Assembly: GCA_016234625.1 (NCBI GenBank) | Contig: JACRBD010000281.1 | Location: 1 to 45,368, forward strand | Direction: 5' to 3' | Length of the DNA: 45,368 nucleotides | Source of the DNA: Caulobacterales bacterium | GTDB taxonomy: Bacteria; Pseudomonadota; Alphaproteobacteria; Caulobacterales; Caulobacteraceae | Shown here: positions 4,169 to 24,072 of the stretch, one piece after another | Position numbering within the stretch: the first letter of the stretch is position 1 | Layout of the letters: every line of letters begins with the position of its first letter | Notes under the pieces: model-generated | Told to the model about the DNA's origin: nothing | The model's database searches: none | Seen by the model: only the letters and a program-made list of their open reading frames with translations | Made by a program: the position numbers and the translations under genes

Positions 4169-4230
4169 GCCGTCCTCCCCTGTTTGTTGACTCGGGCTAT
4201 AGCTGGAACTTCGGCTTTCAGGGGAAGGCG

Positions 4231-5286: not shown

Positions 5287-5295
5287 AGAGAGCGG

Positions 5296-5754: not shown

Positions 5755-5759
5755 GGACC

Positions 5760-6459: not shown

Positions 6460-6477
6460 CTGTTTGCGCCTGTCTAT

Positions 6478-6506
6478 TATGTAGCTCTTAGAGCTATAGA
6501 AATCAA
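6478..6506 (-). promoter_or_regulatory. Predicted promoter/operator of the RelE/XRE module
   Basis: Minus strand: TTGATT (6501-6506), 17-bp spacer, TACATA (6478-6483), with 15-bp palindrome TAGCTCT-T-AGAGCTA (6482-6496) overlapping spacer and -10. Confidence 0.55.
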
Positions 6507-6617
6507 GGACCTCATTCGTCCGGGGTTTCGTCAGGCTGCAATGTTAAATTATGCCATCTAAGGAAGAGTGATGGGGGAAAAATTGCAGCAGGCGGGCCGC
6601 TCGTGGTTGAGGAACCT

Positions 6618-6674
6618 GTGCAAGCTCTACCCGCCCACCGTCTCTCCGTCGCACCTATGATGGACTGGACGTAG
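6618..6674 (+). pseudogene. dusA: Displaced 5' end of dusA (VQALPAHRLSVAPMMDWT-stop), putative attL
   Basis: In-frame LSVAPMMDWT as in intact dusA (23104-23133) then TAG; GTG start with GAGGAA upstream. Confidence 0.75.
6657..6670 (+). repeat. Left 14-bp direct repeat (ATGATGGACTGGAC) of putative dusA island
   Basis: Exact match to 23119-23132. Confidence 0.8.
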
Positions 6675-6910
6675 TTTTTAATAAATTCAAGTAGTTACGT
6701 GGAATGGTGTGCGCGGACTGCACACGGATGTTCGCGTTCTCTCTCGCTTTCGTTCTCACGACGTGCGCCGCTCTGCTCCGAACTTCCACGCAATTGTTCG
6801 TGGCAGACCGCTGTGTCCCTCACCCTTGGCCGGAGATGCGACGCGAGCTGGGCAGTCAGAAAATGCACCGCTCGGTAAATTTTCCGATCAGATCCCGCTT
6901 AAGCTGGATA

Positions 6911-6980
6911 GTTGTCCCGTTCGGGATAACTTTTGACTTCGGAAAGACATTAGTCGATAAATGCCCCGAACGGGATAATT
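6911..6980 (+). promoter_or_regulatory. hipBA promoter flanked by two palindromic operators
   Basis: GTTGTCCCGTTCGGGATAAC (6911-6930); TTGACT (6933-6938), 17 bp, GATAAA (6956-6961); ATGCCCCGAACGGGATAATT (6961-6980). Confidence 0.65.
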
Positions 6981-6985
6981 GGGCT

Positions 6986-7216
6986 ATGGATCCTTCTATC
7001 ATCGGCGACGCCGTCCGGCGCGCCCGCAAGGGCATGGGCTTGCGGCAGGACGAACTGGCCGCCGCGGCGGGCGTCGGCCTGAGATTTCTCGTGGAACTGG
7101 AGCGGGGGAAGCCGACCATTCAGCTGGGTCGTACCCTCGCGGTTCTGGCCGCGGTCGGCCTCGACCTGAGTGTCGTCCCGCGTCAGGCGCCGCCCGGTGC
7201 GGCGCTGCCGTCATGA
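6986..7216 (+). CDS. hipB: HipB-like XRE antitoxin
   Basis: MDPSIIGDAVRRARKGMGLRQDELAAAAGVGLRFLVELERGKPTIQLGRTLAVLAAVGLDL. Confidence 0.88.
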   Translation: MDPSIIGDAVRRARKGMGLRQDELAAAAGVGLRFLVELERGKPTIQLGRTLAVLAAVGLDLSVVPRQAPPGAALPS

Positions 7217-8466
7217 CCAAGTCACTTTCCGTATGGTGGGACGGCAGCCAGGTCGGTCTCCTGCGGATCGACGAGCATGGCGATCTGGCCTTCACCTATG
7301 GAGCCGACTGGCTCGCCGATCCGCGAAGACCCGCCGTATCCTTTTCGCTGCCTCGACGCGCCGAGCCGTTCAATCGCCGGGAGACGCGACCCTTCTTCGC
7401 CGGGTTGCTTCCCGAGGAAGGTCAGCGCGAGGCGGCGGCGCGGGCGCTCGGGGTTTCCAAGGCCAACGATTTTCGCCTGCTCGAGCGACTCGGCGGAGAC
7501 GTCGCCGGCGCCTTGACCCTGTGGCCGGAGGGGGAGGCGCCGCCCGCACCGCGTGATCTGGCGGTCGCCCAGCCGCTGGACGACGACGGGCTGCTGAAGA
7601 TCATCGACACCCTGCCGACCCGGCCCTTCCTGGCTGGCGACGAGGGGGTGCGTCTGTCGCTTGCCGGCGCTCAGCAGAAGCTTCCGGTCGTGATGGTCAA
7701 CGGCCGCATCGCCTTGCCCGTGCCCGGACAGCCGAGCACCCACATTCTCAAGCCTCCGATCACCGGCCTGCCATCGACCACAGAGAATGAGGCGCTTGTC
7801 CTGCGCCTCGCGGCGGCGATCGGTCTGCCGACCGCGCCGGCGGAGCCACGTCGAACGGGAGATCGGCCCTATCTTCTGATCGAACGATACGACCGGACCG
7901 TCGGCGCCGACGGCGCGATTCGAAGGTTGCATCAGGAGGACTTCTGCCAAGCGCTCGGCATAGCGCCCGAACGGAAATACGCATCGGAGGGCGGTCCGAC
8001 GTTCGCGCCATGCTTCGACCTGCTTCGCCGCGCTTGCGCCCAGCCCGCGCCGGCCATCTTGCGCCTCCTCGACGCGGCCATCTTCAATGTCGCTGTCGGC
8101 AACGCCGATGCGCACGGGAAGAACTATAGCCTGCTCTATCGCCCGGAAGGGATAGGCTTCGCGCCACTGTACGATCTGCTTTGCACGGCGGCCTATCCTG
8201 AAGTTCACGCGAAGCTGGCGATGAAGATTGGCAAGCGGGCGAGCTTGGAAGAGTTCACGCCCGATACCTGGAGCGATTTCGGGCGCGAGATCGGCATGAG
8301 CGCGCCGTTCGTGCGTCGCCGCGTGGCCGCCCTGGCGGAGTTGATTCTGGCGCGCGTCGAAGGCGTGGCCGGAGAGATATCGGCGGCCGGCTTTGAGGGG
8401 GCTGAACTGCGCCGGTTCGTGACCATCGTCCGCAGGCGGGCCCAGACACTTCTCGACAAGACCTAG
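7213..8466 (+). CDS. hipA: HipA-type kinase toxin
   Basis: 417 aa; FAGLLPEEGQREAAARALGVSKANDFRLLERLGGDVAGAL, SLAGAQQKLPV, GNADAHGKNYSLLY; ATGA overlap with hipB. Confidence 0.93.
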   Translation: MTKSLSVWWDGSQVGLLRIDEHGDLAFTYGADWLADPRRPAVSFSLPRRAEPFNRRETRPFFAGLLPEEGQREAAARALGVSKANDFRLLERLGGDVAGALTLWPEGEAPPAPRDLAVAQPLDDDGLLKIIDTLPTRPFLAGDEGVRLSLAGAQQKLPVVMVNGRIALPVPGQPSTHILKPPITGLPSTTENEALVLRLAAAIGLPTAPAEPRRTGDRPYLLIERYDRTVGADGAIRRLHQEDFCQALGIAPERKYASEGGPTFAPCFDLLRRACAQPAPAILRLLDAAIFNVAVGNADAHGKNYSLLYRPEGIGFAPLYDLLCTAAYPEVHAKLAMKIGKRASLEEFTPDTWSDFGREIGMSAPFVRRRVAALAELILARVEGVAGEISAAGFEGAELRRFVTIVRRRAQTLLDKT

Positions 8467-8472
8467 AGCCGC

Positions 8473-9395
8473 GTGCCGCCCAAGCGTTGCGAAAAGCATT
8501 CACCGAGCGAGGGGCCGGCTTCAGGAATGGCCACCGTAACCGCCACCTCTCCCGCTGCCACGAAGGTGGGTCTATTCAGAAGCTTGTTCCGAGGGCGAGA
8601 AGACGTGTTTCCCAGCCGGTGGGAGAACTCAAAGACCGGCAAGGCCGGATACGCACCGGTTTGCCGGAACGAGTGGGTTCGAGGCGTTTGCGCGAAGCCC
8701 GCGGTCAAATGTGGTGAATGCGCCAATCAGGCCTTCGTCCCGATAACGGACGATATCGTGGCCGCTCACCTGAAGGGCAAGAGATCCAACGGAGCGACCA
8801 ACTTCACCATCGGGGTCCACAGAGACCCGCCATTCAAGCGCTCTACGCCGAGCTCGCCGCTGACCCCGCCCGGAACGACCTGATCTTCGAGGACATCCTC
8901 GCCGCGCTGGAGGCGGGGCGTTCGCCCCTCGTGATCACCGAGCGCAAGGACCATCTGGATCTGTTGTCCGAACGCCTGTCGAAATTCGCCAGGAATGTCG
9001 TCGTCCTGCGAGGCGGGATGGGCGCGCGGGAGACGCGGGCCGCCGCCGATCGGCTGTCGGCGATCCCCGACGAAGACGAAAGGGTGATCATCGCCACCGG
9101 CCGCTATCTCGGCGAAGGTTTCGACGATGCCCGGCTGGACACGCTGTTCCTGACCCTGCCGATCTCCTGGCGGGGGACATTGGCCCAGTACGCCGGCCGC
9201 CTTCATCGGATGCATGCTGCAAAGCGCGATGTTGTCATCTACGACTATTTCGACGCGGACGAGCCCATGCTGGCTAAAATGGCCGCCAAGCGTGAGGCTG
9301 GCTACAGGAGCCTGGGCTACATGGTGGCGGTGGGCCGCGAGGCCGGCGATCAGGCTGTCAGAGCCGCCCGAGCGACCGCAGGCTCCGGAGCATGA
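8473..9395 (+). pseudogene. Decayed TOTE-type primase-helicase: N-terminal fragment joined out of frame to helicase C-terminus
   Basis: Frame 1: LFRSLFRGREDVFPSRWENSKTGKAGYAPVCRNEWVRGVCAKPAVKCGECANQAFVPITDDIVAAHLKG; frame 3: ALYAELAADPARNDLIFEDILAALEAGRSPLVITERKDHLDLL...ATGRYLGEGFDDARLDTLFL...YAGRLHR. Confidence 0.8.
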
Positions 9396-12223
9396 TCCGT
9401 CGCCAGGGCGGCGACCAGCCGCATGGTTAACCGGGCTAGTTCGGCGGCTTCGGCGGGTGTTGGCGCCGCGGCGCCCGGCCGCAAGATCGCCAGGACCTGC
9501 TCGGCCTCCACGGACAAGCCGCTCTGCTTCAAGAGGTCGAGCACCTGTTCGGCGATGGTCGATGAAGGGGCCGCCGCCTCTCCAGCCGCCCTCAGGCGCG
9601 CGGCGACGGCGTAGCGTAGCGCCTTGGCGAGCAACGGGGGCGCCTCCTCCGGAAACCCGCCGGCGGCGAGCACGCGGGCCATCCTGATTGCTCGTTCCGC
9701 TTCCTCGCGCCAGGCATCGTCATGTTCCGTGGCGTTGTTCGCCGCGTCCGGCTCGCCGAACTCGGGCGAGACATGCAAGATCCGGCGCCCCCCGCCAGTC
9801 AGGTCAAGCACACCCGACCGCGCCAGCCGGCGAAGCGTCAGCCACGTCGCGCGGTCGAGAACCTCCACGGGCAAGCTGGCTGCGTCCTGACGCCGGCTCA
9901 GACGTTCGGTCTCGCCGGCGAGACCATCGGCATCGAGGTCCAACACCGCAAGCACCCGTCGAGCGCCGCCGGGGCCGGTCTGGACTTCGATCCGCAATGC
10001 CCGCTCGCCATGGCGCAGGCGCAGGTCCACGGCGAGGGCGTCCTCGGGCGAGACGATTTTGGGCCCGAGGCCGTCGGCGGCCTCCAGCATGGAGCGCATG
10101 CGATCGACCAGTGCGCCCCTGCCGGAGGGCATCTTCAACGCGCCGATATCGCCATGGCCGTCCAGCAGGCCATCGGCCAGCACCTGCTTGACGTTCAGGA
10201 GGTGCAGGATCGCGTGCTCGATGCTGCCTTCGGTGACCAGATTGATCACCGCCACCGGGCGGGTCTGATGCTTGCGCCACGCCCTGGCGATGCGCTGTTC
10301 TAGCTTGGCCGGGTTCCACGGCAGGTCGATATTGATCACGGCGCTGGCGGCCTGCAGATTCAGGCCGACGCTGCCGCTGTCGGTGGACAGGAACAGCCGG
10401 CAATTGGGGTCGTTCTTGAAACGATTGATCTCTTCTCGGCGGCGAACCTGCGGGACCGAGCCCGTATGCCAGGCCGCCTCGACGCCCAGTTCTCCGGCCA
10501 ATTCCCGCACCAGCCCCAGCATCCGCTCCCATTCGGAGAAGATGATGATCTTGCGGTCGGGCTCCTGCAGGAGGTCGCCAAGAATACCCTCCAGCTCCTC
10601 CAGCTTGGGGCAGACGCGGCAGTCGGGGTCGAGGATGGCGGGCGTGTCGCAGATCATCCGCATGCAGGCCATGAGCATCTGCATCTTGTCGAACTCGGCC
10701 GGGGACAGCGGCCGGCGCTGAGCGATGGCGGCAAGCCTGGCCAGCGGAGTCCGATACTCCTCGTAGCGGTCCGCCTGCTCGGGGGCCATCGGCACGAAGT
10801 AGTTGGTCACCGTGCGTCCGGGCAGCTCGGTTTCCACATCCGATTTGCGGCGGCGTAGCAGCACCGGCGCGACCCGGCGGCGCAGTTCGGCGAGGTTGCG
10901 GTACTCCACCGGCCGTCCGCGCTCGTCCAGTTCATAGAAGCTGCGGTTGAACTGGAACAACGGCCCGACCAGTTCCGGATCGAGATATTGGATGATGGAA
11001 TAGAGTTCGTCGATGCGGTTCTCCACCGGCGTGCCGGTGAGCACGAAGGCGTATGGCGAGCGCAGCGACTTGACCTTGCTGGCCGTCTTGGTGCGCCAGT
11101 TCTTGATCCGCTGGGCCTCGTCGAGAACGACGATGTCCGGCGTCAGCAAGTCGTTGATCGCCTCGGCGTCGCTGACCACCTGTTCGTAGTTGACGATGGT
11201 GAAGAACGGCGGGTCGCGGTAGGCCAAGAGCCGCGCCGGGCGAGGGCCGAACACTGATCGGGTCGGCCGTTCGGTGAAGCGGGCGATCTGCTCCTCCCAC
11301 TCCGCCTTCAGGGACGCGGGACAGACCACCAGCACCCGCTCCACACCCTTGCGGCGGGCCAGCAGTTCACAGGCGGCGATCGCCTGGACGGTCTTGCCCA
11401 ACCCCATCTCGTCGGCCAGCAGGGCGCGCTCGCCAAAGGCCAGGTGCGCCATGCCTTCCCGCTGATAGGGCAGCAGGGGATGGCGCAGCATGTCCAGAAC
11501 CGCGGGATCGCGTTCGACCTCGGTGGCGAAGGCGGCGCGCGCCTCCAGTCGCGACCGTTCCCGCCGATGGCGGTCCAGCCAGGGGCCGAAGTGGCGCGAT
11601 AGACGCAGCAGGTCCCGCACTGGCGGCGGAGCGTCCGCATAGGCGGCGAGGAGGCTCTCGATGTCGCCTGGCTCGAGGCTGAGCTGGCCGCCGGGGGTCA
11701 GCCAGGGCGACAGCCAGGCGCGGACCATGCTGGACTCGCCGCCGCCCACGCGCGGGCAGGTAACCACCGGCGTCGGCGCTCCCGTCCGGCGAAGGAAGAC
11801 CTCGACCCGCCCTGAGCCCTTGGCGACCGCCTGGCGGAAGGCGCGAACGCCACGACGGCGCAGGCCTGCCAGCACGCCCTCGATGTGCTTGCACGTCCCT
11901 AGCCCGTTCACCCGGTGGTCGATGCAGCCGCAACCGTTCTCAAGGCCGTCCAGGGACCGGATTTCGACCTCATAAACGGTCCCGCTCTCCGACCGCGTCC
12001 GGAACGTCCCGAAGAAGGGATGCTCCATCTCCATGGCCTCGACGGTGGTGATCTCAGTGCGCCCGCGCCAGCGCCGCAACTCGATCTCGTGCTCGTCGCT
12101 GGTGTCCCAGCCCAGGGGCGCGGCCGGCCGCTCGAGGACGGTTCGCGCCCGCCCGCCTTTCCGCGAGCTCTTGCCCGGAGAGCGCGTCGATGGGGAGGGT
12201 TTGATCACCCGATCTGCTTGCAT
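9350..12223 (-). CDS. SNF2-family DEAD/DEAH helicase with SWIM-type zinc finger
   Basis: 957 aa; CGCIDHRVNGLGTCKH (SWIM), LLADEMGLGKTVQAIAA (Walker A), VVLDEAQRIKN, STDSGSVGLNLQAAS, QRIARAWR. Confidence 0.93.
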   Translation of the reverse strand: MQADRVIKPSPSTRSPGKSSRKGGRARTVLERPAAPLGWDTSDEHEIELRRWRGRTEITTVEAMEMEHPFFGTFRTRSESGTVYEVEIRSLDGLENGCGCIDHRVNGLGTCKHIEGVLAGLRRRGVRAFRQAVAKGSGRVEVFLRRTGAPTPVVTCPRVGGGESSMVRAWLSPWLTPGGQLSLEPGDIESLLAAYADAPPPVRDLLRLSRHFGPWLDRHRRERSRLEARAAFATEVERDPAVLDMLRHPLLPYQREGMAHLAFGERALLADEMGLGKTVQAIAACELLARRKGVERVLVVCPASLKAEWEEQIARFTERPTRSVFGPRPARLLAYRDPPFFTIVNYEQVVSDAEAINDLLTPDIVVLDEAQRIKNWRTKTASKVKSLRSPYAFVLTGTPVENRIDELYSIIQYLDPELVGPLFQFNRSFYELDERGRPVEYRNLAELRRRVAPVLLRRRKSDVETELPGRTVTNYFVPMAPEQADRYEEYRTPLARLAAIAQRRPLSPAEFDKMQMLMACMRMICDTPAILDPDCRVCPKLEELEGILGDLLQEPDRKIIIFSEWERMLGLVRELAGELGVEAAWHTGSVPQVRRREEINRFKNDPNCRLFLSTDSGSVGLNLQAASAVINIDLPWNPAKLEQRIARAWRKHQTRPVAVINLVTEGSIEHAILHLLNVKQVLADGLLDGHGDIGALKMPSGRGALVDRMRSMLEAADGLGPKIVSPEDALAVDLRLRHGERALRIEVQTGPGGARRVLAVLDLDADGLAGETERLSRRQDAASLPVEVLDRATWLTLRRLARSGVLDLTGGGRRILHVSPEFGEPDAANNATEHDDAWREEAERAIRMARVLAAGGFPEEAPPLLAKALRYAVAARLRAAGEAAAPSSTIAEQVLDLLKQSGLSVEAEQVLAILRPGAAAPTPAEAAELARLTMRLVAALATDHAPEPAVARAALTA

Positions 12224-12330
12224 GACGGGATGCTAGCGGTGAGGGCCGAGTCCCTCAACGACCGTCTGGGGGTTGAGGGGCGCCGCGCGTCTCGTCATGT
12301 TGGGAAGGCGAACGGGAAGGAGATGCGAGC

Positions 12331-12576
12331 ATGGCCAAGGACAAGCTGGTCCCCGACACGGACAGGATCGACGACGCCGTTCTGGCGCTGCTCCATCTGG
12401 GCCTTCACGACGGATTTCGGGCCTGGAAGGGCTTCGACTGGGAGACGATGAACCGGCTCCACGAGAAGGGTATGATCCGCGATCCCGTCGGTAAGCCGAA
12501 GTCCGTGGTCTTCACGGAGGAAGGCCAGCAGCGGGCCGAAGAGCTGTTCGCGGCGATGTTCACCAAACAGTCCTGA
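12331..12576 (+). CDS. DUF6429 family protein
   Basis: DTDRIDDAVLALLHLGLHDGFRAWKGFDWETMNRLHEKGMIRDPVGKPKSVVFTEEG. Confidence 0.85.
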   Translation: MAKDKLVPDTDRIDDAVLALLHLGLHDGFRAWKGFDWETMNRLHEKGMIRDPVGKPKSVVFTEEGQQRAEELFAAMFTKQS

Positions 12577-12599
12577 TCGTTCCCTCGACCTTGGGCTTT

Positions 12600-12866
12600 G
12601 GTCCCTGCGCCGTCGTCCTCCACGTCGTTCAAGGTCGCATCGCTCAGTTCGTTCACAAGGGTGATCCGGCGGCGAGTGATCTCGTACTTGTTCAGCGCCG
12701 CCCGGTCCTCCTTGAAGGCCCCTTCCACCGCGAACATCATCGTCGGCGTCATGCTGGCGCCGCGGAAAAAAAGCAGCGTGTCCTTCTTGGACCTGCAGAG
12801 CAGGGGAATTGTATCGACAAGCTGAGAGAGCAACTCGGGCGGATAGTGGAAGCGACCGTGCAGCAC
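12600..12866 (-). pseudogene. N-terminal remnant of a predicted restriction-endonuclease-family protein
   Basis: FHYPPELLSQLVDTIPLLCRSKKDTLLFFRGASMTPTMMFAVEGAFKEDRAALNKYEITRRRITLVNELSDATLN; ORF then runs antisense into DUF6429. Family assignment from memory. Confidence 0.45.
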
Positions 12867-12926
12867 AAATCCCTAGATGCCAGGCGGCATAATACCCGAG
12901 AAAATGAACGACATAAAAACCTAGAA

Positions 12927-14507
12927 ATGATACAGCGGAAAAGCCGAAAAATCATCCATGCTCTCTTGGACTCCATGCCCACCCCGTCTGAACGGCTCGC
13001 CCTGGCGCTCGAGGCGCTTGACGCCCTGCAGACGCAGGGACGCCACGCTATTCGGTCCAGGGATCTCAGCCGCGCCCATCGCGAGCTGTTGCTGAAGCAG
13101 GGCTTTCTCCAGGAGGTGATGAAGGGCTGGTACGTCGTTGCCCGGCCAGACGTGGAGGCGGGCGAAAGCACGGCCTGGTACGCATCCTACTGGGATTTCT
13201 GTCGCGACTATCTCACCGAACGATTCGACGCGGACTGGTCCCTGTCGCCAGAACAATCTCTCCTCCTCCACGCCGGCAATTGGAACGTCCCGCAACAGCT
13301 GTTGGTCCGCGCGCGACGCGGCGGCAACCAACTCATGGGGCTGCCGCACGGGACGTCGCTGCTGGACGTCAAACTCAAGCCGCCGAGCGGCGCGGATATG
13401 GCCGAAGTGGCGGGCTTGCGGCTCTACGCGCCGGCCGCCGCCCTGATCCATGCCTCGCCACAGGTCTTTCTGAACCATCCCACCGAGGCGCGTACTGCGC
13501 TGGCGACCCAGCGCGACGCCTCCGACCTCCTGGCGCGCCTCCTGGAAGGTGGACGCAGTGTCGTAGCGGGACGATTGGCAGGGGCCTTCCGCAATATTGG
13601 CCGGGATCGCGAGGCCGACGATATCCTCCACGCCATGCGGGCGGCCGGTTATAACGTCCGCGAGAAGGATCCGTTCGATCGTGAGCTTCCGCGGATCGAA
13701 TACCAGCGCGAGCCCTCGCCCTATGTCCACCGCATCCGGCTACTCTGGCAGAAGATGCGCGCCGACATCGAGGGTCGCTTTCCGCCGCCGGCGCCGGCCA
13801 ACGACATCGACGCCTATCTACGGGCTGTCGATGACGTTTATGTCACCGACGCCTACCACTCGCTCTCAATCGAGGGCTATCGCGTCAATCGCGACCTCAT
13901 CGAACGGGTGCGCGGCGGCGTCTGGGACCCGGATGCCGACGACCGGGACCGCGCCCATCGGGATGCCCTGGCGGCGCGGGGGTACTGGCAGGCGTTCAAC
14001 GCGGTGAAGGCCAGCGTGCGGCAAGTGCTGGAGGACGCCAATCCGGGAGCCGTCGCCGACCGCGACCACGGCGTCTGGTACCGCGAACTGTTCGCTCCGA
14101 GCGTTACGGCCGGTTTGCTGAAGCCCGCCGACCTGGCCGGCTATCGCAACGGCCCTGTCTACATTCGCCGCTCGCGCCATGTCCCGCTCAACGCCGACGC
14201 GGTGCGGGATGCCATGCCTGTCTTCTTTGAATTGCTGGCGGCCGAGCCGGATCCTGCCGTGAGGGTGGTGCTCGGCCACTTCATCTTCGTCTACATCCAT
14301 CCTTACTTCGACGGGAACGGCCGCACGGGGCGGTTCCTGATGAATGTCATGATGGCGGCGGGGGGCTATCCCTGGACCGTTATCCCGGTCCAGTCACGGA
14401 CCCGCTATATGGCTGCATTGGAGGCCGCCAGCACCGAACAGGACATCGGCCCATTCACGGGTTTCATCGCGGAGCTGATCGGCCAGCCGACCGCGCCGGC
14501 GCTCTGA
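12927..14507 (+). CDS. Fic family protein with N-terminal AbiEi-like winged-helix region
   Basis: HPYFDGNGRTGR (14298-14333); SLSIEG inhibitory-type motif (13860-13877); N-term LEALDALQTQGRHAIRSRDLSRAHRELLLKQGFLQEVMKGWYVVARPD. Alternative start 12975. Confidence 0.9.
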   Translation: MIQRKSRKIIHALLDSMPTPSERLALALEALDALQTQGRHAIRSRDLSRAHRELLLKQGFLQEVMKGWYVVARPDVEAGESTAWYASYWDFCRDYLTERFDADWSLSPEQSLLLHAGNWNVPQQLLVRARRGGNQLMGLPHGTSLLDVKLKPPSGADMAEVAGLRLYAPAAALIHASPQVFLNHPTEARTALATQRDASDLLARLLEGGRSVVAGRLAGAFRNIGRDREADDILHAMRAAGYNVREKDPFDRELPRIEYQREPSPYVHRIRLLWQKMRADIEGRFPPPAPANDIDAYLRAVDDVYVTDAYHSLSIEGYRVNRDLIERVRGGVWDPDADDRDRAHRDALAARGYWQAFNAVKASVRQVLEDANPGAVADRDHGVWYRELFAPSVTAGLLKPADLAGYRNGPVYIRRSRHVPLNADAVRDAMPVFFELLAAEPDPAVRVVLGHFIFVYIHPYFDGNGRTGRFLMNVMMAAGGYPWTVIPVQSRTRYMAALEAASTEQDIGPFTGFIAELIGQPTAPAL

Positions 14508-14747
14508 TATCCAGGATTTCATTGCGGCAGGGACAGGGCGTGCGACGTTTGGCGGCGGCGCTCCGGCGAACCGCGCCTGCGTCTCCCGGTGGTCGTCGCG
14601 GAAGCTGACAGTCGGCGCTCGCCAATGCGCCCAATGAAGAGGCGCGCTTCGCGAGCGGCGCCGCTACCGCCCAGCTACACCACGTCCGGGGGCACGATCT
14701 CCGAACGCGACTGGCCGCTTGCCCTTCGATGGCCGGCGCTCGCCCAA

Positions 14748-15626
14748 CTAGGACGCAAGGGGAAGGCCCGCGATCCGGCAGAACATACCCTCTGGATGGA
14801 ACGCGACCCGCACCTGGGTTCCATCGCCCGACAAGGCCCGTTCGATGAGCTGTGATCCAAAGCCGCGGTGGGTCGGCGCGCCTACGGCGGGGCCGCCATG
14901 TTCGCGCCACTCGAGCTGCAGGCTGCTGTCGCTTCGCCGCCGCCAGCAGACCGCGACGCGGCCTTCGCCGTTGGAAAGGGCGCCATGCTTCAGCGCATTG
15001 GTGGCCAGCTCATGCAGGACCAGGCTCAGCGCCGGCGCGGCGCGGCCCTGGATCACCACGGAGGGGCCCCACGCGTCACAACGGTCCTGTTGACCGATCG
15101 CGGCGAAGGTTCGACCGAGGATCGCCTGGACGTCATTGTCCACCCCATCGACGTCATCGCCGAACCGCCAGCCCTCGGCCATGGCCGACAGGCGGGCGGC
15201 CAGGATCGTGCGGGCGTGGGTGAGAGATTGGGCGGTCCGCAGGGTGCGTGAGGCGATGGCCTGGGCCACGGCGATGATGTTGCAGGCCCGGTGGTTCAAT
15301 TCCCCGATGATCAGCCCGGCCATGTCTTCGCGCCGCCTACGCTCGCTGATGTCGATCATGACGCCGCAGACCCGGCTGCACCGACCCGCGTCGAAGAGGC
15401 CTCGGCCGTAGACGGCCACCCAGCGCCGGCCGCCGGCTTCGGCGCCGACCTGGCACTCCTCCGAGACCGGCGACCTCAACGCCGGATCGGCGGCCGCGGC
15501 TACCGCGTCGCGCAGCCGGGCCTGGTCGCGTTCATCCAGCGCATCGAATGTAACATCGCCCGGAAGGCGCCACGGCATCCGGCCGCCCGTGGGCTGATAG
15601 TCCCAAAAGCCCAGATCGGCGATCAT
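14748..15626 (-). CDS. PAS-domain HWE-family sensor histidine kinase
   Basis: GLIIGELNHRACNIIAVAQAIASRTL, LSLVLHELATNALKHGALS, GFGSQLIERAL; start overlaps upstream stop (ATGA). Confidence 0.88.
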   Translation of the reverse strand: MIADLGFWDYQPTGGRMPWRLPGDVTFDALDERDQARLRDAVAAAADPALRSPVSEECQVGAEAGGRRWVAVYGRGLFDAGRCSRVCGVMIDISERRRREDMAGLIIGELNHRACNIIAVAQAIASRTLRTAQSLTHARTILAARLSAMAEGWRFGDDVDGVDNDVQAILGRTFAAIGQQDRCDAWGPSVVIQGRAAPALSLVLHELATNALKHGALSNGEGRVAVCWRRRSDSSLQLEWREHGGPAVGAPTHRGFGSQLIERALSGDGTQVRVAFHPEGMFCRIAGLPLAS

Positions 15627-16405
15627 TTCACGTCTCCCGTCAGATTGTGGAGGGGTTGCTGGCTGACCGTGATCAGGCCTCTGCGCGGGCGGTCGAAGTC
15701 CTGGATCTGCAGAATGACGGCGGCCAGCAGCAGGCTGGCGACGATCGAGGCGGTCGCCGGTCGCCCGCCGCCCAGGCCGGCCTTGTAGCCGTTGAGGCCC
15801 AGGGCCGCGGCGGCCAGCAGGTAGAGCAGCAGGAAGACGGCCTCCGGCACGTGACTGCGGTCGGCGGTCAGTCGCTTCTCGACCATGTCTTCGAGATCGT
15901 TCACCGCCTGGATGAACAAGCCGTTGGGGATCGAGCGGGAATCCAGAGCGGCGACGGCCACCGCCTGGTCCCATAGCCGCCGTTGCAGTTCCATCGATTG
16001 GGCCGCGATCTGGCGCTGGGCGCCGGGGCCGCGGTCCTCGACGGTGAGGCGCACCTTCAGATAGTCGTCCAGGATGCCGGCAGCCACGTCGGCCTGAGGC
16101 CGGGGCAGCATTTCGGCGCGGTTTCGCGCCGTGCCGAGGGCCAGGGCCTCCTCCAGCACGAAGGCCTTGCGTGTGTCGTAGCGACTGACCGCCACGGAGA
16201 AGGTGAAGCTGATCATCAGGGTGACCAGGCCGAGCGCCGTCCCCTGCAGTGTCCCGATGGCGCCGGACCTGTCGTCTCGGCCGCGCGCGGCGGAATGCAG
16301 CCCGGCCCGCTGGCCCAGCCAGGCGCTGGTCAGCAGCGCCGCGACGCTGACCGGGAACACGATCCACTGGCTGACGCCATACAGCCACTCGGTCGCGGCG
16401 ATCAT
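15623..16405 (-). CDS. DUF4239/bestrophin-like integral membrane protein
   Basis: 260 aa with N- and C-terminal TM pairs; GTLQGTALGLVTLMISFTFSVAVSRYDTRKAFVLEEALALGTARNRAEML. Confidence 0.72.
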   Translation of the reverse strand: MIAATEWLYGVSQWIVFPVSVAALLTSAWLGQRAGLHSAARGRDDRSGAIGTLQGTALGLVTLMISFTFSVAVSRYDTRKAFVLEEALALGTARNRAEMLPRPQADVAAGILDDYLKVRLTVEDRGPGAQRQIAAQSMELQRRLWDQAVAVAALDSRSIPNGLFIQAVNDLEDMVEKRLTADRSHVPEAVFLLLYLLAAAALGLNGYKAGLGGGRPATASIVASLLLAAVILQIQDFDRPRRGLITVSQQPLHNLTGDVK

Positions 16406-16845
16406 GGCCGGACCGCCGTTTGCGTCGCGGTGGAAGCGGAGGCGGCGGCGCCGACCTCGACCAGCCCGCCGGTCGCCGTGACCGAGGTGGCGTTGGCGCT
16501 GAGCGCGCCGGTGTTTTGCTGTTCAGCCTCGACGGCCACGTCGACGACGCTGTTGTCGCCGACGACAACGGTGATGAGGTTCATGTTGGCCACCGAGCCG
16601 ACGCTGGGCAGGCCCCCGAAACCGCCGCCGGATGCGGTGGGTCCGCCCGGGAAGCCGCCGGGCCGGCCGGCCTGCTCGGCCTGCCACATCGTCACGGCGC
16701 GGCCGGTCGCGGCGACATTGCCGTGAACCCCGTAGTCCCAGGGGTGGCTGTTGAGACGGTCGTCGGCGCGGGCGGCGGAACCGCCCAGCAGCGCGCAGCC
16801 GATGACGAACGCCAGCGGCGCTCGGGTGAAATCAGTCATGGACAT
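16402..16845 (-). CDS. Small secreted protein, putative surface/holdfast-like substrate
   Basis: 147 aa, signal peptide ending GGSAARA; Gly-rich then NLITVVVGDNSVVDVAVEAEQQNTGALSANATSVTATG; ATGA overlap with next gene. Confidence 0.6.
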   Translation of the reverse strand: MSMTDFTRAPLAFVIGCALLGGSAARADDRLNSHPWDYGVHGNVAATGRAVTMWQAEQAGRPGGFPGGPTASGGGFGGLPSVGSVANMNLITVVVGDNSVVDVAVEAEQQNTGALSANATSVTATGGLVEVGAAASASTATQTAVRP

Positions 16846-16902
16846 CGCTTTCCAGATTGAGGGGACCCGGAGACAGCGCCGCCGCCTCCGGGTCCAACGA
16901 GG

Positions 16903-17739
16903 CTAGAGACCCGGAACCAGCGTTCCGACGCGGGTGGTCACGCCGGCCAGGTTGCCGATGGCGGTCGCCGTGGCGCTGGCGATCGGCCGGTCCAGGGCGC
17001 CCATGTTGCTGGCGCTGTTCAGGGTGACGCTGGTGGCGGCCGTCGCGTCGGTAGCGCCGATGCTCAGCTGGGCCAGGTCGGCCGCCATCAGGGCGTTGGT
17101 GACATAGCCGCCGGTGGGGTCGGCGCCCGCCAGCTCGGCCGGCGGCGCCGCCAGTTCGAGGCTGGTGGTGTTGCTGACCGCGCGGGCGTCGGACGAAGCG
17201 GTGGCGTCGATGACCCCGACGGCGCTGGCCGTGGCCGAGGTCTGGTGCGGCGTCAGAAAGCCGGTCCCGGCGTCCGCGATCATGCCGTCGGCGTAGGCGT
17301 AGTTGGGATTGGCGGCCAGGGGATCGGCCACCGAGGGAACCGCGCCGGAAGTGGGTTCGACAGCGCCGGCATGGAACTGCCCGACATCGACCGAAAGCGG
17401 AACCTCCGAGCCGGCGCTATAGACGTTGGCGTAGGCTGAGGCGCTGGACACCATGTGACCAAGGTCGGTTCCGCCGTCCAGGGGGCTGGTCGCGGGAAGC
17501 ACGATGGCCTGGCCGTCGGACTGGGCGTTGATGTCGCCCATGTAAATCTGACGGGCCTGTAGCGTCGCCTGGCCGGTAGGCAGGGCCACCAGGCTGGAGG
17601 TGGTGACGTTGGTGCTGGTGTCGGTGCGGGTCAGCACCCAGCTCCAGTTGACGGTGTCGAAGGCCAGGGCCGGGCCGGCCATCAAACCAAGAACGAGGGC
17701 GGCGGAGGCCGCGCCCGCGCGAAGGGATCGGGAGGTCAT
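16903..17739 (-). CDS. Secreted Ala/Ser/Thr/Asn-rich protein, putative surface/holdfast-like substrate
   Basis: 278 aa; signal peptide MTSRSLRAGAASAALVLGLMAGPALA; low-complexity beta-type composition. Confidence 0.62.
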   Translation of the reverse strand: MTSRSLRAGAASAALVLGLMAGPALAFDTVNWSWVLTRTDTSTNVTTSSLVALPTGQATLQARQIYMGDINAQSDGQAIVLPATSPLDGGTDLGHMVSSASAYANVYSAGSEVPLSVDVGQFHAGAVEPTSGAVPSVADPLAANPNYAYADGMIADAGTGFLTPHQTSATASAVGVIDATASSDARAVSNTTSLELAAPPAELAGADPTGGYVTNALMAADLAQLSIGATDATAATSVTLNSASNMGALDRPIASATATAIGNLAGVTTRVGTLVPGL

Positions 17740-17765
17740 GGGAAGGTCTTTCCGTTGGGGAGGGT

Positions 17766-18593
17766 TTATGAAGGACGAGCCGTTGCGCCGTCCTCGGTGA
17801 GGCGACATTCGGGATTTGCGGCCAGGCCGAGGTAGTCCGTCATGATCTGATGGACGGCCATCTCGGCGACTGACCGGACGCCGAGCTGCAACGGCTCGTT
17901 CCGGATACGTCCGGCGTCCAATTCGATGAGGTTGGAGCCAAAGAAGCGGAAGACGTTGGCCTCCACCTCGCGGCCGACGATGCGTTTCTGCAGGCTGGAG
18001 ACGTAGACGACCTCAAGTGTGCGGGCGTCGATCAGGCGAAGGTCGAGGGCGACATTGACCACCACCCGCTTGCCGCCGCCGCCGACGCCCTTGATCCACA
18101 GGCCGACGCCGTCGCTGACGATGTTGTAGTTGAGCTCGGTCAGGGCGCCGGCGACGATGAAGTCCGCGCCGCGTACGGCGCCGGGCCTGATGGGTTCGCC
18201 CGCCAGGCCGCCCTTGCGGAACATCAGCTCCTGGTTGGCCACGCGCAGGTCGGCCCGCTCCAGCAGACGCACCTTGCGGGTCTTGTAGAAGGCGCTGATC
18301 ACCATCTCGGTGGCGCCCTGGCTGAGGGCGTAGCCGTGATCGGCGACGCTGAGCTGACCGGTCTTGTCGACGATCTCGCCGACCGCCAGCGAGGGCAGGT
18401 TGTCCCCGGGCCGGGCGGCGAGGGCGGACAGGCAATGCGAGTAGGGCGTGGCGTTGCTGCTGACCGGATAGGCCGAGGCGTCGTCGCCCGCCGAGGCGGG
18501 GAAAGCCGCGCCGAGGGTGAGGAGCATCGCTGTGGTCGCGAAGGCCGCCACCGGGTTGCGGTCTCGCCATGAAGCTGTTGCTGCGTTTTTCAT
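17766..18593 (-). CDS. CsgG/HfaB-like outer-membrane secretion family protein
   Basis: LAVGEIVDKTGQLSVADHGYALSQGATEMVISAFYKTRKVRLLERADLRVANQEL...GADFIVAGALTELNYNI...VVVNVALDLRLIDARTLEVVYVSSLQKRIVGREVEANVF. Confidence 0.82.
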   Translation of the reverse strand: MKNAATASWRDRNPVAAFATTAMLLTLGAAFPASAGDDASAYPVSSNATPYSHCLSALAARPGDNLPSLAVGEIVDKTGQLSVADHGYALSQGATEMVISAFYKTRKVRLLERADLRVANQELMFRKGGLAGEPIRPGAVRGADFIVAGALTELNYNIVSDGVGLWIKGVGGGGKRVVVNVALDLRLIDARTLEVVYVSSLQKRIVGREVEANVFRFFGSNLIELDAGRIRNEPLQLGVRSVAEMAVHQIMTDYLGLAANPECRLTEDGATARPS

Positions 18594-18753
18594 GACGGCT
18601 ACCTACCGCCACGATTTCCGCCTGAGCGGGCAACCGCCACCGCATCGGCGCCAATGGTCAGGATCGCTCCGAACCGGCGTCACCCGCCGTGAAACCGGCG
18701 CTTGCGGGAGTCTAAGGCATGGAGGCCGATCCCCGGCGCAGGAGCCTTGAGCC

Positions 18754-19938
18754 ATGTCCGCACAGCGCGTTCTTATTGTCGATGACGATCCGGAGTTCGC
18801 CGCCCTCCTGGCCGAGGGGCTGACCGATCGGGGTCATCCCTGCCGCACCGAGAGCGACGCCGCCCATCTTGGCGCGGGCGCCTGGGCCTGGGCGGACCTG
18901 GCGATCGTCGACCTGCAACTGGGCCGAGGGCAGGATGGGCCCCAGGTCCTGCGCCGCATGCGCCTGCTCAAGACGAGGCCGCGGATCATCCTGGTCAGCG
19001 GCTTCGATGTCATGGTGTTGGCGGCGGCGAGCCGGGCGGCGGGCGAAATGGGCTATGAGATGGCAGGGGCCTTCGCCAAGCCCGTCGCCATCGGGGCCCT
19101 GGCCTCGGTCGTGGCGGCCAGGCCTGTCCACGATCCCCAATCGGCCCGCAAGCGCTCGCCGGTGACCGCGGATGACCTGGTCCAGGGGCTGGACCGCCAG
19201 GAGATCAGCGTCGTCTTCCAGCCGAAAGTGGCCCTCGCCGACGGCGCCTGCGCGGGCTTTGAGGCGCTGGCCAGGTGGTCCTCTCCCGTGCTGGGCGAGG
19301 TTTCGCCGGACCGTTTCGTCACCGCCGCTGAAGTCTTTGGCCTGGCCGAGCGCCTGACCATGGCCGTCTACACACAGGTGTTGAAGACCGCCTCGGCCTG
19401 GGCCGCCGTGGGATTCGCGCCACCGATCTCGGTGAATCTTTCAGCCGAACTGCTGCCGGCCGATGGTCTGGTGGAAGCGCTGCTGGACCTGACAGCCCGC
19501 TTCGACGCGCCGCCCACCCAGATCACCTTCGAACTGACCGAGACCGCCGCCATGCCCATGCGTGGACGGGCGCTGGAGGCGGTTACCCGGCTGCGGCTGG
19601 CCGGGTTCGGTCTGTCTCTCGACGATTTCGGCATGGGCGAGAACCGCTTCGAGCGGCTGCTGGGTCTGCCGCTGACCGAGGTCAAACTCGACCAACGCTT
19701 CGCTCAACTGGTCACCAGGCCGCATGGCCGGCGGCTGGTCAGCGGCCTCGCCGCCTTGATCCGTGGCCTGGGGGCCGTCTGTGTCGCCGAAGGCATCGAG
19801 GACGAAGCGCAACTGGAGGCGTTTCGAGACGCCGGCTGCGACATCGGCCAGGGCTGGCGCCTCGGTCGGCCCCTGGCCGCGCCGGAGCGTTGTGTTGAGT
19901 TCGCCCGCGCATCTCACCATGCCGCCGTTAAACACTGA
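18754..19938 (+). CDS. Response regulator with EAL domain (c-di-GMP phosphodiesterase)
   Basis: REC VLIVDDDPEF / AIVDLQL; EAL: GFEALAR, ISVNLSA, FELTE, LDDFG, VKLD, AEGIED, GQGWRLGRPL. Confidence 0.9.
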   Translation: MSAQRVLIVDDDPEFAALLAEGLTDRGHPCRTESDAAHLGAGAWAWADLAIVDLQLGRGQDGPQVLRRMRLLKTRPRIILVSGFDVMVLAAASRAAGEMGYEMAGAFAKPVAIGALASVVAARPVHDPQSARKRSPVTADDLVQGLDRQEISVVFQPKVALADGACAGFEALARWSSPVLGEVSPDRFVTAAEVFGLAERLTMAVYTQVLKTASAWAAVGFAPPISVNLSAELLPADGLVEALLDLTARFDAPPTQITFELTETAAMPMRGRALEAVTRLRLAGFGLSLDDFGMGENRFERLLGLPLTEVKLDQRFAQLVTRPHGRRLVSGLAALIRGLGAVCVAEGIEDEAQLEAFRDAGCDIGQGWRLGRPLAAPERCVEFARASHHAAVKH

Positions 19939-19978
19939 TCTTTCCAACAAGTTCACCTAAGCCCCGTAGACGCGATCG

Positions 19979-20887
19979 ATGACAGCCTTTCAAACCCTGG
20001 TCGTCGAGGACGACCCTGCCTGCGCCGAGGCGCTGGGCGAACTCCTGAACGACGCCGGATATCAGACCCGCCACGCCGCCGATCCCGGACAAGCCATGGT
20101 CGCCATGGCCCGCGACGCCGCCGTCGGCATTGTCGTTCTTGATTTCCATCTGCCGGAAATGGACGGCCTGCGGCTGCTGCGTGAACTGCGCGCGGCCGCC
20201 AGCGAGCGGGGCAGCTCGATCCAGGTTCTGCTCTGCTCCGGCGCGGCGGGCATGGCCGACCTGGACGCCGCCATGCGCCTGGGCGTGGCGGCCTATCTTT
20301 CCAAGCCGATCGAGCGGGCGGCGCTGCTCAACGCCATGGCCGACGCCGCCAGGCGCTACCGCGACCTGGAGGCCGACCGCACGGCCAGAAGCGCGATGAT
20401 CGGTCATTTCCGCACCCTGGAAGACGGTCTCATCCAGGCGTCGCGACAGATGTCACAGCTGCTGGATCTGCCGGCCGCGCCATCATTGGCCGACCCGGAG
20501 TCAGCCCCGGGCTTTGGCGCCGCTCCGGCGCCGGGCGTTGATCGAGCCTGGCAAGCGCTGCAGTGCGACCGTCTGCTAAAGGAGGCGCGGCTGATGGATC
20601 GCCTGCTGGCGCGGGCGGCCATCGACAGCGCGGAATGGCGCGTCCTGCTGGCGCTGCGGGAGGCTGATCTGGGCGGCGGGGCGGCTTCGGCCACCAGCAT
20701 CGCCCTGGCCTGCGGGGCCAGCGCCACGGCAGGCCTCAGGCGGATCGCCGCGCTGGAAGGGCGGGGGCTTGTGGGGCGGGGAGATGACTCCAGTGACGGA
20801 CGGCGGGCCATGCTGACGCTCACCGCCACTGGACGGACCCTGTGCGGCGAGGTGATCGAGGCCATTGTCGCGGCCAGGGCGGCATGA
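19979..20887 (+). CDS. Response regulator: REC fused to MarR-like winged helix
   Basis: REC TLVVEDDPA / VVLDFHLPEMDG / YLSKPIE; C-term EWRVLLALREAD...LRRIAALEGRGLVGRGDDSSDGRRAMLTLTATG. Confidence 0.85.
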   Translation: MTAFQTLVVEDDPACAEALGELLNDAGYQTRHAADPGQAMVAMARDAAVGIVVLDFHLPEMDGLRLLRELRAAASERGSSIQVLLCSGAAGMADLDAAMRLGVAAYLSKPIERAALLNAMADAARRYRDLEADRTARSAMIGHFRTLEDGLIQASRQMSQLLDLPAAPSLADPESAPGFGAAPAPGVDRAWQALQCDRLLKEARLMDRLLARAAIDSAEWRVLLALREADLGGGAASATSIALACGASATAGLRRIAALEGRGLVGRGDDSSDGRRAMLTLTATGRTLCGEVIEAIVAARAA

Positions 20888-21486
20888 CGATCCGCACTCG
20901 CCTGATCGCCTCGATCGCCGCGATCCAGACCCTGTTTCTGATCACCATGGTCATCGCCACCCTGACCATTGGCCGGGAGGCCGCCAGCCGGCGAATTGAG
21001 GTCCAGGCCGGTCAGAAGGCCGATCTGGCGGCCATTCTTCTTCGCAAGGCCGTATGGGGCAGCGACGTCGCGGCGGCCCGCGAGCTCGCCCAAGAACTGG
21101 TCGACGGAGACGCCCTGGTCTCCGCTGTCGTGTTCGACAGGCGCGGCGCGGTCCTGGCCTCGGCGAGCGACGCCGGCCCGGCCCCCCGGCGCGCCGCCCG
21201 GGCCAGCCGGCCGATCCAGGTCGATGGCGTGGCGGCCGGGACAGTGGCGGTGGAGGTGTCGGGCGACTTTCTGGATGGCGTCCTGGCGGGGATCTATTCG
21301 AAACTCGTGCTGATCGCGGCGTGTCTCGTCCTGCTGTCGGCTGGCGCCTCCTGGATGTTCGGCAACCTGATGACGCGGCGCCTAGCGGCCCTGCGCCTCT
21401 CCGCCGAAGCCTTGGCGCAGGGGGATTTCGAGCTGCGGATGAGCGGACGGGACCGCTCGAGGTGGTCGCCGTGGCCAAGGCGATGA
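20884..21486 (+). CDS. N-terminal part (TM, sensor, partial HAMP) of a frameshifted sensor histidine kinase
   Basis: MTIRTRLIASIAAIQTLFLITMVIATLTI...MTRRLAALRLSAEALAQGDFELRMSGR, then out of frame; starts overlapping previous gene (ATGA). Confidence 0.8.
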   Translation: MTIRTRLIASIAAIQTLFLITMVIATLTIGREAASRRIEVQAGQKADLAAILLRKAVWGSDVAAARELAQELVDGDALVSAVVFDRRGAVLASASDAGPAPRRAARASRPIQVDGVAAGTVAVEVSGDFLDGVLAGIYSKLVLIAACLVLLSAGASWMFGNLMTRRLAALRLSAEALAQGDFELRMSGRDRSRWSPWPRR

Positions 21487-22646
21487 ACGGGATGGCCCAG
21501 CGCCTGGGCGGGCTCTATGCCGACATCCGCCACGACCTGGACCGCCGCAATCGCATGCTGGCCTCGACATTCGAGCACATGAACCAGGGCGTCGCCATCT
21601 TCGACGCCGAGGGCCGCCTGGTCGAGGTGAATGAGGCGTTTGCCGGCCTCATCGGCCTGCCGCCGGCCGTGATCGTCGCCGGGATCCATCTCGACGCGCT
21701 TGTGGATTTTCATGCCGAGGCCGGGGCCTACAGGGGTGGGGCCGAGGAGGAGTCTCTCGAAGCTTCGTGCCGAAGCCGGGACTGGCCGGGGCCTTCGTTG
21801 ACCTTCAGGCTGCCGTTTCCCGACGGGCGGGCGATCGCGGTTCAGCGCACCCGTCTCCCGGACGGCGGGTTCATCGCCGTCCACGAGGACATCACCCGCC
21901 AGCTCCAGGACGAACGGCGCCTGCGGCACGCCGCCAAGCTGACCACCCTGGGCCGGCTGGCCACGGCCACCGCGCATGAGCTGAACCAGCCGCTCAACGT
22001 CATCCGCCTGTCGGCCGACAACGCCGCCGCCCGGCTGGCCGCCGACACGGCGAGCCCCGAATACCTGGCGGAAAGGCTGCAACGGATATCGGCCCAGACC
22101 GAGCGCGCGGCCCGGATCATCGATCACATGCGCATATTCGGGCGGATGCCGGCGGAGGAGCCGGCGCCCTTCGACCTTGGCGAAACCGTCAGGTCGGCGG
22201 CCGAATTCTTCGGCGAGACCGCGCGCCTGCGCGGGTTGCGACTGGACCTTTGCCTGGATCCTGGCCTGATGGTCACGGGTCATCCGGCGCTGATCGAACA
22301 GGTGGTCGCCAACATCCTGTCCAACGCATTCGCCGCCCTGGCCGCCGCCGACGTCGCTTCGCCGACGGTGCGGATCGGCGCGGCGCGGCGTGGCGGCCGG
22401 ATCAGGGTCGAGGTCGCCGACAACGCCGGCGGCGTACCGGCCGACGTTCTACCCCGCATCTTCGAACCCTTCTTCACCACCAAGTCGGTCCACGAGGGCA
22501 CGGGGCTGGGGCTGTCCATCAGCTACGGCATCGTCGCCGACATGGGCGGACGGCTGGAGGTGGAAAATCGCGGCGAGGGGGCGGTGTTCTCGTTCGAGCT
22601 TCAAGCGCTGGGCGCACCGGCGCCGGCGGCTGAGGCCGCGGCCTAG
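21483..22646 (+). CDS. C-terminal part (rest of HAMP, PAS, HisKA, HATPase) of the split histidine kinase
   Basis: MNGMAQRLGGLYADIRHDLDRRNRMLASTFEHMNQGVAIFDAEGRLVEVNEAF; GRLATATAHELNQPLNVI; EPFFTTKSVHEGTGLGLSISYG. Confidence 0.85.
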   Translation: MNGMAQRLGGLYADIRHDLDRRNRMLASTFEHMNQGVAIFDAEGRLVEVNEAFAGLIGLPPAVIVAGIHLDALVDFHAEAGAYRGGAEEESLEASCRSRDWPGPSLTFRLPFPDGRAIAVQRTRLPDGGFIAVHEDITRQLQDERRLRHAAKLTTLGRLATATAHELNQPLNVIRLSADNAAARLAADTASPEYLAERLQRISAQTERAARIIDHMRIFGRMPAEEPAPFDLGETVRSAAEFFGETARLRGLRLDLCLDPGLMVTGHPALIEQVVANILSNAFAALAAADVASPTVRIGAARRGGRIRVEVADNAGGVPADVLPRIFEPFFTTKSVHEGTGLGLSISYGIVADMGGRLEVENRGEGAVFSFELQALGAPAPAAEAAA

Positions 22647-23100
22647 GAAGGGGACACGTCAGCTACTGGATGGTGGCCACATCTGATTTGTCGAGCTGAC
22701 GCCCGCCTAGTTGCAGTCACGGATTCCCGCACGTCGACCTGGGTCAGTGGCGGCTGGCGCCGCGTGTCGCGCGGGCTACGCCACCTCTGGCGACATGGCC
22801 ATTGTCTTTTCTTCAGGCTGGCCGGGCAGTCGTTCGCCGGGGTGTTTGTCCGAAACCTGTAGGTATTTTTCGGACGCTACAGACCGACGCCTTGGGTGGC
22901 GCCGGCGGCCGCTCGACGGCGCGTCCCGCCGTGCATCGTCTGTCGCGCAGGCTCCCTGCAACCACCATCAAGCCGACGCGGCGCATCCAGCGCAACTGCG
23001 GCTATTGCACATCAGTTCGCCTAACTTGCTGAAAATGCTAATCAGTCCGTCCAGTCCGACGCAGGGCCTATTTCTACATAAATTGTGTAATAAAATCAAT

Positions 23101-24072
23101 ATGTTATCCGTTGCCCCCATGATGGACTGGACCGACCGCAATTGCCGGGCGTTCCACCGTGTCCTGACGCGGCGGTCGCTGCTGTATACCGAGATGGTCA
23201 CCAGCGGGGCGGTGCTGCATGGGCCGCGGGAGCGGCTGCTGGGCTATGATCCCTCGGAACATCCGGTGGCGCTGCAGCTGGGCGGGTCGGAGCCGGCGGA
23301 TCTGGCGGCCTGCGCGAAGATCGCCGAGGACCTCGGCTACGACGAGATCAACCTCAATGTCGGCTGCCCCTCCGACCGGGTGCAGAGCGGCCGGTTCGGC
23401 GCCTGCCTGATGCGCGAGCCGGAGCTGGTGGCAGACTGCATGGCCGCCATGAAGGCCGCCGTGGCCACGCCGGTGACTGTCAAATGCCGCATCGGCGTCG
23501 ACGACCAGGATCCGGGGGAAGCCCTGTTCCGGCTGGTCGACCTGTCGGCCCGGGCGGGGGTGACGACCTTTGTCGTGCATGCCCGCAAGGCCTGGCTGCA
23601 GGGCCTGTCGCCCAAGGAAAACCGGGACATCCCGCCACTGGACTATCCGCTGGTCTATCGGCTCAAGCGCGAGCGGCCGGACCTGACCATCGTCCTCAAT
23701 GGCGGGGTGGCGAGCCTCGACGAGGCCGTGGCGCATCTGGACCATGTGGACGGGGTGATGCTCGGCCGGGCGGCCTATCACGAACCGGGGATTCTGGGCT
23801 CGGTGGACAGCCGCGTCTTCGGCGAGGGCGAGGTCGTCGATCCGTTCGAGGCGGTCGAACGCTACCGCCCCTACATGGCTGGCCGTCTGGCGGCGGGTGC
23901 TCATCTGGCCGGCATGACCCGCCACATGCTGGGCCTGTTCCACGGTCGCCCGGGCGCGCGCAGCTGGCGGCGGATATTGACCGTCGAGGGCAGCAAGGCG
24001 GGCGCTGGCCTGGAGGTCGTCGATGCGGCGCTGGCGGCGGTGGCCGAGGCGGCGGCGCGGAAGGCGGCGTAG
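23101..24072 (+). CDS. dusA: tRNA-dihydrouridine(20/20a) synthase DusA
   Basis: MLSVAPMMDWTDRNCRAFHRVLTRRSLLYTEMVT, LNVGCPSDRVQSGRFGACLM, VHARKAWLQGLSPKENR. Confidence 0.95.
   Translation: MLSVAPMMDWTDRNCRAFHRVLTRRSLLYTEMVTSGAVLHGPRERLLGYDPSEHPVALQLGGSEPADLAACAKIAEDLGYDEINLNVGCPSDRVQSGRFGACLMREPELVADCMAAMKAAVATPVTVKCRIGVDDQDPGEALFRLVDLSARAGVTTFVVHARKAWLQGLSPKENRDIPPLDYPLVYRLKRERPDLTIVLNGGVASLDEAVAHLDHVDGVMLGRAAYHEPGILGSVDSRVFGEGEVVDPFEAVERYRPYMAGRLAAGAHLAGMTRHMLGLFHGRPGARSWRRILTVEGSKAGAGLEVVDAALAAVAEAAARKAA
23119..23132 (+). repeat. Right 14-bp direct repeat (ATGATGGACTGGAC) inside dusA, putative attR
   Basis: Exact match to 6657-6670. Confidence 0.8.

Follow-up and report, generated by a model that had tools for sequence, protein, structure and literature searches.

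A CsgG/HfaB-like exporter gene and two genes for secreted proteins form a conserved trio located on a dusA-specific island of a Caulobacterales bacterium

The analyzed stretch of 45,368 nucleotides from a Caulobacterales bacterium (hereafter the window) harbors a minus-strand gene cluster in which three genes represent the conserved unit. They encode a CsgG/HfaB-like pore (P0001), an "HfaD-like" secreted protein (P0002), and an "HfaA-like" secreted protein (P0003). Most likely, this trio is a separate lineage of CsgG-dependent surface-protein export which is related to the holdfast anchor in its parts and plan and moves between genomes. Judged from the sequences, the locus in the window is probably a hitherto undescribed form of CsgG/HfaB-dependent export of surface proteins with an adhesive or anchoring function, borne by an island and controlled by two-component and c-di-GMP signaling. 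No description of the trio system was found in the open-access literature searched.

P0001 would form a CsgG-like outer-membrane pore exporting P0002 and P0003. The latter would act as a pair of surface subunits with repeats and a distant relationship to HfaD and HfaA, and they may build an adhesive or anchoring structure on the cell surface. The adjacent two-component/c-di-GMP module consisting of a histidine kinase, a REC-HTH protein, a REC-EAL protein, and an HWE kinase would control the operon, and the operon presumably arrived at its present position via a dusA-specific genomic island.

Table 1. Features of the trio locus and its island in the window
Feature	Position	Strand	Description
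attL-like repeat	6651..6671	+	GCACCTATGATGGACTGGACG, left over from the former 5' end of dusA; 0.01 chance matches expected
P0005	14748..15626	-	PAS + HWE histidine kinase, 292 aa
P0004	15623..16405	-	DUF4239/"Bestrophin-like" membrane protein, 260 aa
P0003	16402..16845	-	small, secreted, 147 aa; C-terminus resembles HfaA
P0002	16903..17739	-	HfaD-like secreted protein of 278 aa with "GN-box" repeats
P0001	17766..18593	-	CsgG/HfaB-family outer-membrane exporter, 275 aa
Divergent intergenic region	18594..18753	.	160 bp, from gene coordinates; presumed shared promoter region
REC-EAL response regulator	18754..19938	+	predicted c-di-GMP phosphodiesterase; PF00563 1.4e-55, PF00072 3.3e-9
REC response regulator (REC-HTH)	19979..20887	+	MarR-like C-terminus; PF00072 7.8e-22, weak MarR_2
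PAS/HisKA histidine kinase	20884..22646	+	two out-of-frame pieces; PAS_7, HisKA, HATPase_c
attR-like repeat inside dusA	23113..23133	+	right boundary of the island (16.5 kb)

Organization and distribution of the trio

The tight packing of five minus-strand genes (P0001 to P0005) given in a preliminary description was found again, with 57 bp between P0002 and P0003 and ATGA overlaps of P0003/P0004 at 16402-16405 and of P0004/P0005 at 15623-15626; the gap between P0001 and P0002 had to be corrected from 27 to 26 bp. When 85,462 species genomes were scanned with P0001, 51 loci with 47-74% identity were obtained, nearly all of them labeled alphaproteobacterial. Together with a second survey, a csgG-like gene was called in 55 loci; a P0002-type gene was present in 51 of these and a P0003-type gene in 45 (counted by hand as presence in the locus; adjacency within 400 bp was scored separately). 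The trio genes were adjacent in dozens of alphaproteobacterial loci. Cultured species with the trio include Oceanibaculum pacificum and Pelagibius litoralis. As to the order of all five genes, that of the first three recurred in dozens of unrelated genomes and is thus more than chance, but P0004 and P0005 were not conserved along with them.

Among 387 genomes of the class, 10 had P0002-type genes, the window's own included, and no other of 250 genomes of the family scored above marginal values (E about 1e-3); the distribution is therefore patchy, and the locus is alien to the family. One genome (G368) contained five P0002-type genes and had csgG-P0002-P0003 cassettes in tandem, an amplification which fits structural subunits.

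The dusA-specific island

The cluster was previously placed inside a putative island, and this location was confirmed: dusA att repeats flank it at 6651 and 23113, and the trio region is absent from the corresponding site in congeners. The island is dusA-specific and spans about 6657-23118 (16.5 kb). The 5' end of dusA has a copy (CCCGCCCACCGTCTCTCCGTCGCACCTATGATGGACTGGAC) at about 6631-6671, and the bases preceding the left repeat match the dusA 5' ends of congeners; in dusA itself, different bases are followed by GCCCCCATGATGGACTGGACC at 23113, and the first codons are replaced relative to congeners. The att pattern matched nowhere else in the genome. This arrangement corresponds to the signature described for dusA-specific genomic islands (PMC4482086), and the window island shares with these the imperfect direct repeats of 21 bp in the 5' part of dusA and the replacement of the dusA start by island sequence. 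Unlike them, it showed no dusA-associated integrase gene: no integrase domain was detected among ten proteins scanned at 4231-14504, and none was evident among the called genes.

The interval between the SDR gene and dusA is 18.9 kb in the window as compared to 1.0-4.5 kb of unrelated genes in congeners. The region of 4.2-6.6 kb is an additional lineage-specific stretch; an att-repeat search restricted to 4101-6000 found nothing. DusA is 93% identical to the protein of a congener, which places the contig in the genus.

State of the window copy

The lipobox Cys before the conserved TPYxxC motif is missing in P0001, whereas 46 of 47 relatives keep this lipobox (45 by pattern and L123 by eye; the remaining relative, L110, is truncated). 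Furthermore, the frame of the histidine kinase is broken at 21462-21486 into the pieces 20884-21486 and 21462-22646, while the nearest relative of the window, a locus of a Sphingomonas MAG (L076), has a single frame of 589 aa. The missing lipobox and the broken kinase suggest that the window copy may not work. A decaying passenger without present function, to which the integrase gene not seen in the island would also fit, is therefore a real if tentative possibility, and it is compatible with the preferred explanation of the family as a surface-export system. Against it speak the open reading frames of the three core genes, whose codon usage is coding-like, and the tightness of all four junctions. 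The frame break could also be an assembly error in this genome of 365 contigs; the choice lies between a decaying locus and a fault of the assembly.

Exporter and secreted proteins

The resemblance of P0001 to CsgG and HfaB was clearly borne out. P0001 matched the Pfam CsgG profile (PF03783) with E 1.8e-25 over columns 11-208 of 210, which corresponds to the full-length domain, and the NCBIfam HfaB profile (NF037935) with 162-165 bits (2e-48), below its cut-off of 300 bits; it also matched solved CsgG chains (6e-14) and is 74% identical to its counterpart in the Sphingomonas MAG. P0001 and its relatives form a clade of their own separate from HfaB: in a CsgG-family tree of 63 rows, the branch dividing them from 20 HfaB-type proteins had an SH-aLRT of 96 and a length of 1.42. 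This tree came from a quick search and has one outgroup on a very long branch; its rows were collected by patterns from P0001, and intermediates could be missing among them.

Hydrophobic N-terminal signal sequences were recognized by eye in both P0002 and P0003, in agreement with the earlier prediction of signal peptides. Neither protein matched a Pfam or NCBIfam family. For the P0002 family (36 members), one chance-like Pfam match and no NCBIfam match were obtained, and a Pfam scan of the P0003 family (32 members) gave two matches only, both chance-like. Profile comparison by hhalign related P0002 to HfaD (90.5%, E 1.4e-6, 151 columns, repeat-driven and in compositionally biased sequence) and P0003 to HfaA (95.3%, E 2e-8, just 43 C-terminal columns, likewise compositionally biased). 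The similarity appears to be real, but short or repeat-driven, as the aligned sequence is short or repetitive and rich in Ala, Ser, Thr, and Asn. The "GN-box" ("A-x-G-N") was strongly enriched over shuffled sequences in all four substrate families (103 vs 6, 27 vs 4, 11 vs 2, and 44 vs 6) and absent from the CsgG control; a "Q-box" motif was dropped after scoring equally high in this control. A function of the trio as a surface fiber or anchor, as proposed in the preliminary description, remains an inference. The AF2 model of P0002 reached a pLDDT of 68.5 and a pTM of 0.61 and was beta-rich at 58-270, and that of P0003 (pLDDT 55.7) was of too low confidence for use. A tRNA-Pro called by ARAGORN within P0002 was discarded, as it had no Rfam support.

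The trio shares with Caulobacter hfaABD (PMC6707917) a CsgG-like exporter accompanied by a small secreted protein (HfaA in hfaABD) and a larger repetitive one (HfaD), GN-box repeats, and, within the limits of the short or repeat-driven alignments, profile similarity of both substrates. The trio might accordingly be a second HfaABD locus anchoring the same holdfast polysaccharide, the more so as additional hfaB-type loci are frequent in the genus. We consider this unlikely. Besides the long branch separating the exporters, the gene order is B-D-A and not A-B-D, the regulators are different, and the trio coexists with a canonical hfaABD locus, which was found elsewhere in the same host (G000:C191) and encodes the sole host protein above 300 bits in the HfaB search (423 bits). 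This supports the initial view of a cluster other than the canonical hfa locus. Additionally, none of 19 other trio hosts tested contained an HfaB above the cut-off, and trio exporters scored below this equivalog cut-off in every host tested; on the basis of the tree and these scores, canonical hfa orthology was rejected.

Regulatory genes

P0004 and P0005 were correctly assigned in the preliminary description as a DUF4239 membrane protein (PF14023, 2.7e-11) and an HWE kinase (HWE_HK, PF07536, 1.2e-10), and signaling genes are indeed attached to the exporter and substrate genes. The regulators truly accompanying the window copy are, however, the divergent REC-EAL, REC-HTH, and histidine kinase genes, which had been omitted there. 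This block is common to the window and L076: the REC-EAL protein is 51% identical to that encoded at 6567-7736 of L076, the REC-HTH protein 57% identical to that at 5626-6558, and the C-terminal piece of the histidine kinase 60% identical to the intact kinase. The divergent intergenic region comprises 150 bp in L076, and comparison by eye with that of the window revealed no obvious conserved motif. In most other loci a different type of regulator was present: about 40 of the 55 loci (counted by hand, with a general LuxR-type profile) had a LuxR-type gene, often divergent and reminiscent of CsgD, upstream of their csgG-like gene.

The preliminary description regarded all five genes as one sensing system with the DUF4239 protein and the HWE kinase as integral parts. 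The ATGA overlaps do couple P0004 and P0005 to the trio, L076 has a kinase with 38% identity to P0005 downstream of its trio, and a gene encoding an Hpt domain takes the downstream position in Vibrio alginolyticus. Yet at E<1e-5, none of the related loci yielded a P0004 homolog, showing that the DUF4239 protein is not part of the conserved system, and an HWE kinase stands beside the trio in the window and in L076 only. Conservation therefore does not extend to all five genes, and this reading appears improbable, with LuxR-type regulators in place of these genes in most loci.

Plasmids and phages

Genes similar to those for P0001 and P0002 were found on six Vibrionaceae plasmids, five from V. 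alginolyticus and one from Photobacterium ganghwense, all of them non-mobilizable by PLSDB typing. The two plasmid loci which were examined fully (L180 and L181) matched the profiles of the trio with 2e-112/3e-112, 6e-66/3e-49, and 7e-23/2e-27, and their first two trio genes overlap by 4 bp. The Hpt-domain gene follows the trio on the V. alginolyticus plasmid of these two. This plasmid (NZ_CP119337.1) encodes portal and head-processing proteins, ParAB, and a replication initiator and was therefore taken as a phage-plasmid. The trio thus spreads laterally.

Location on such a plasmid and on an island here would also be expected of a mobile-element accessory altering the cell surface for the benefit of the element, for example, by blocking the receptors of other phages; CsgG-like genes do occur in jumbo phages of Caulobacter and Brevundimonas. 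Their identity, however, amounts to only about 35-36%, and phages yielded no P0002 homolog; a single-protein query of IMG/VR confirmed no relatives. Moreover, most copies lie beside dedicated regulators in non-phage contexts, and this explanation is considered improbable.

Comparison with curli and Fap

The trio has a CsgG-family exporter in common with the curli loci csgBAC/csgDEFG (PMC3521004), and the LuxR-type regulators of most relatives resemble the CsgD arrangement. Identity with curli was nevertheless dropped as highly improbable: the two substrate families are not curlins, with no match to the curlin motif (PF07012 repeats) in any of the four substrate families, those of P0002 and P0003 included, or in the host genome, and CsgF (PF10614) is absent from the host and from 15 of 19 hosts; where present, csgF is located at another place than the trio.

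A survey by Dueholm in 2012 regarded many CsgG hits outside curli as likely paralogs in a larger family (PMC3521004), and some hits of this kind would be explained by the trio locus. We consider the chances about even that the trio is a third CsgG-type lineage with two new subunit families, which has passed between proteobacterial classes by way of islands and phage-plasmids while exchanging its regulators (LuxR-type, Hpt, HK/REC-EAL/HWE). If the preferred reading of a surface-export system is correct, two families of many alphaproteobacteria for which Pfam and NCBIfam have no model would gain a testable function as substrates of a CsgG-like pore. CsgG-dependent surface assembly would then be wider than curli and holdfast anchors, and it would be mobile, including on a phage-plasmid of V. 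alginolyticus.

Fold searches with the P0002 model against PDB and viral models gave nothing at E<=0.001. The first rank was occupied by the amyloid FapC (E 0.009, TM 0.19/0.31), a weak and not significant resemblance to the Pseudomonas Fap system, from which the trio differs in its exporter, which is of the CsgG type and not a FapF porin.

Carriers and variants of the locus

The V. alginolyticus plasmid NZ_CP119337.1 (loci L181 and L183) bears the trio of CsgG/HfaB-like exporter (P0001), HfaD-like secreted repeat protein (P0002) and HfaA-like small secreted protein (P0003), together with portal, head-processing, ParAB and replication genes. This gene content suggests a phage-plasmid that carries a putative surface-protein export operon as cargo. 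CsgG-like proteins were also observed in Caulobacter and Brevundimonas jumbo phages (records H20-H28), with about 35-36% identity to the Vibrio exporter; a search for P0002 homologues in phages found none.

Genome G368 (loci L150 and L151) harbors five P0002-type genes, the csgG-P0002-P0003 cassette being repeated in tandem. Loci L052 and L053 each contain two adjacent hfaB-type genes, the second without evident lipobox; possibly, hetero-oligomeric exporters are formed in the genus of the window's host. Many Rhodospirillales-type loci, L155 among them, have another small secreted protein encoded upstream of the trio; it had no Pfam match and belongs to no recognized family.

Other features of the window

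No integrase was seen among the remaining genes of the dusA-specific island. The tRNA called by ARAGORN within P0002 lacked Rfam support and is probably false. The histidine kinase is split into two overlapping frames by either a frame break or an assembly error; its counterpart in L076, the nearest related locus, is intact (589 aa).

Coordinates of features in the window and related loci
Feature	Locus	Position	Remark
RelE-type toxin, HTH antitoxin	window	5760-6459	lineage-specific stretch, left of island
HipB/HipA pair, helicase fragment, SNF2 helicase, DUF6429, Fic protein	window	6672-14507	other island genes
tRNA-Pro(cgg) call	window	17083-17174	antisense
Histidine kinase	window	20884-22646	
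Small secreted protein	L155	10088-10618	counterparts elsewhere
hfaB-type pair	L052	6299-8294	
hfaB-type pair	L053	2588-4547	
Trio-bearing plasmid	L183	NZ_CP119337.1:1-49000
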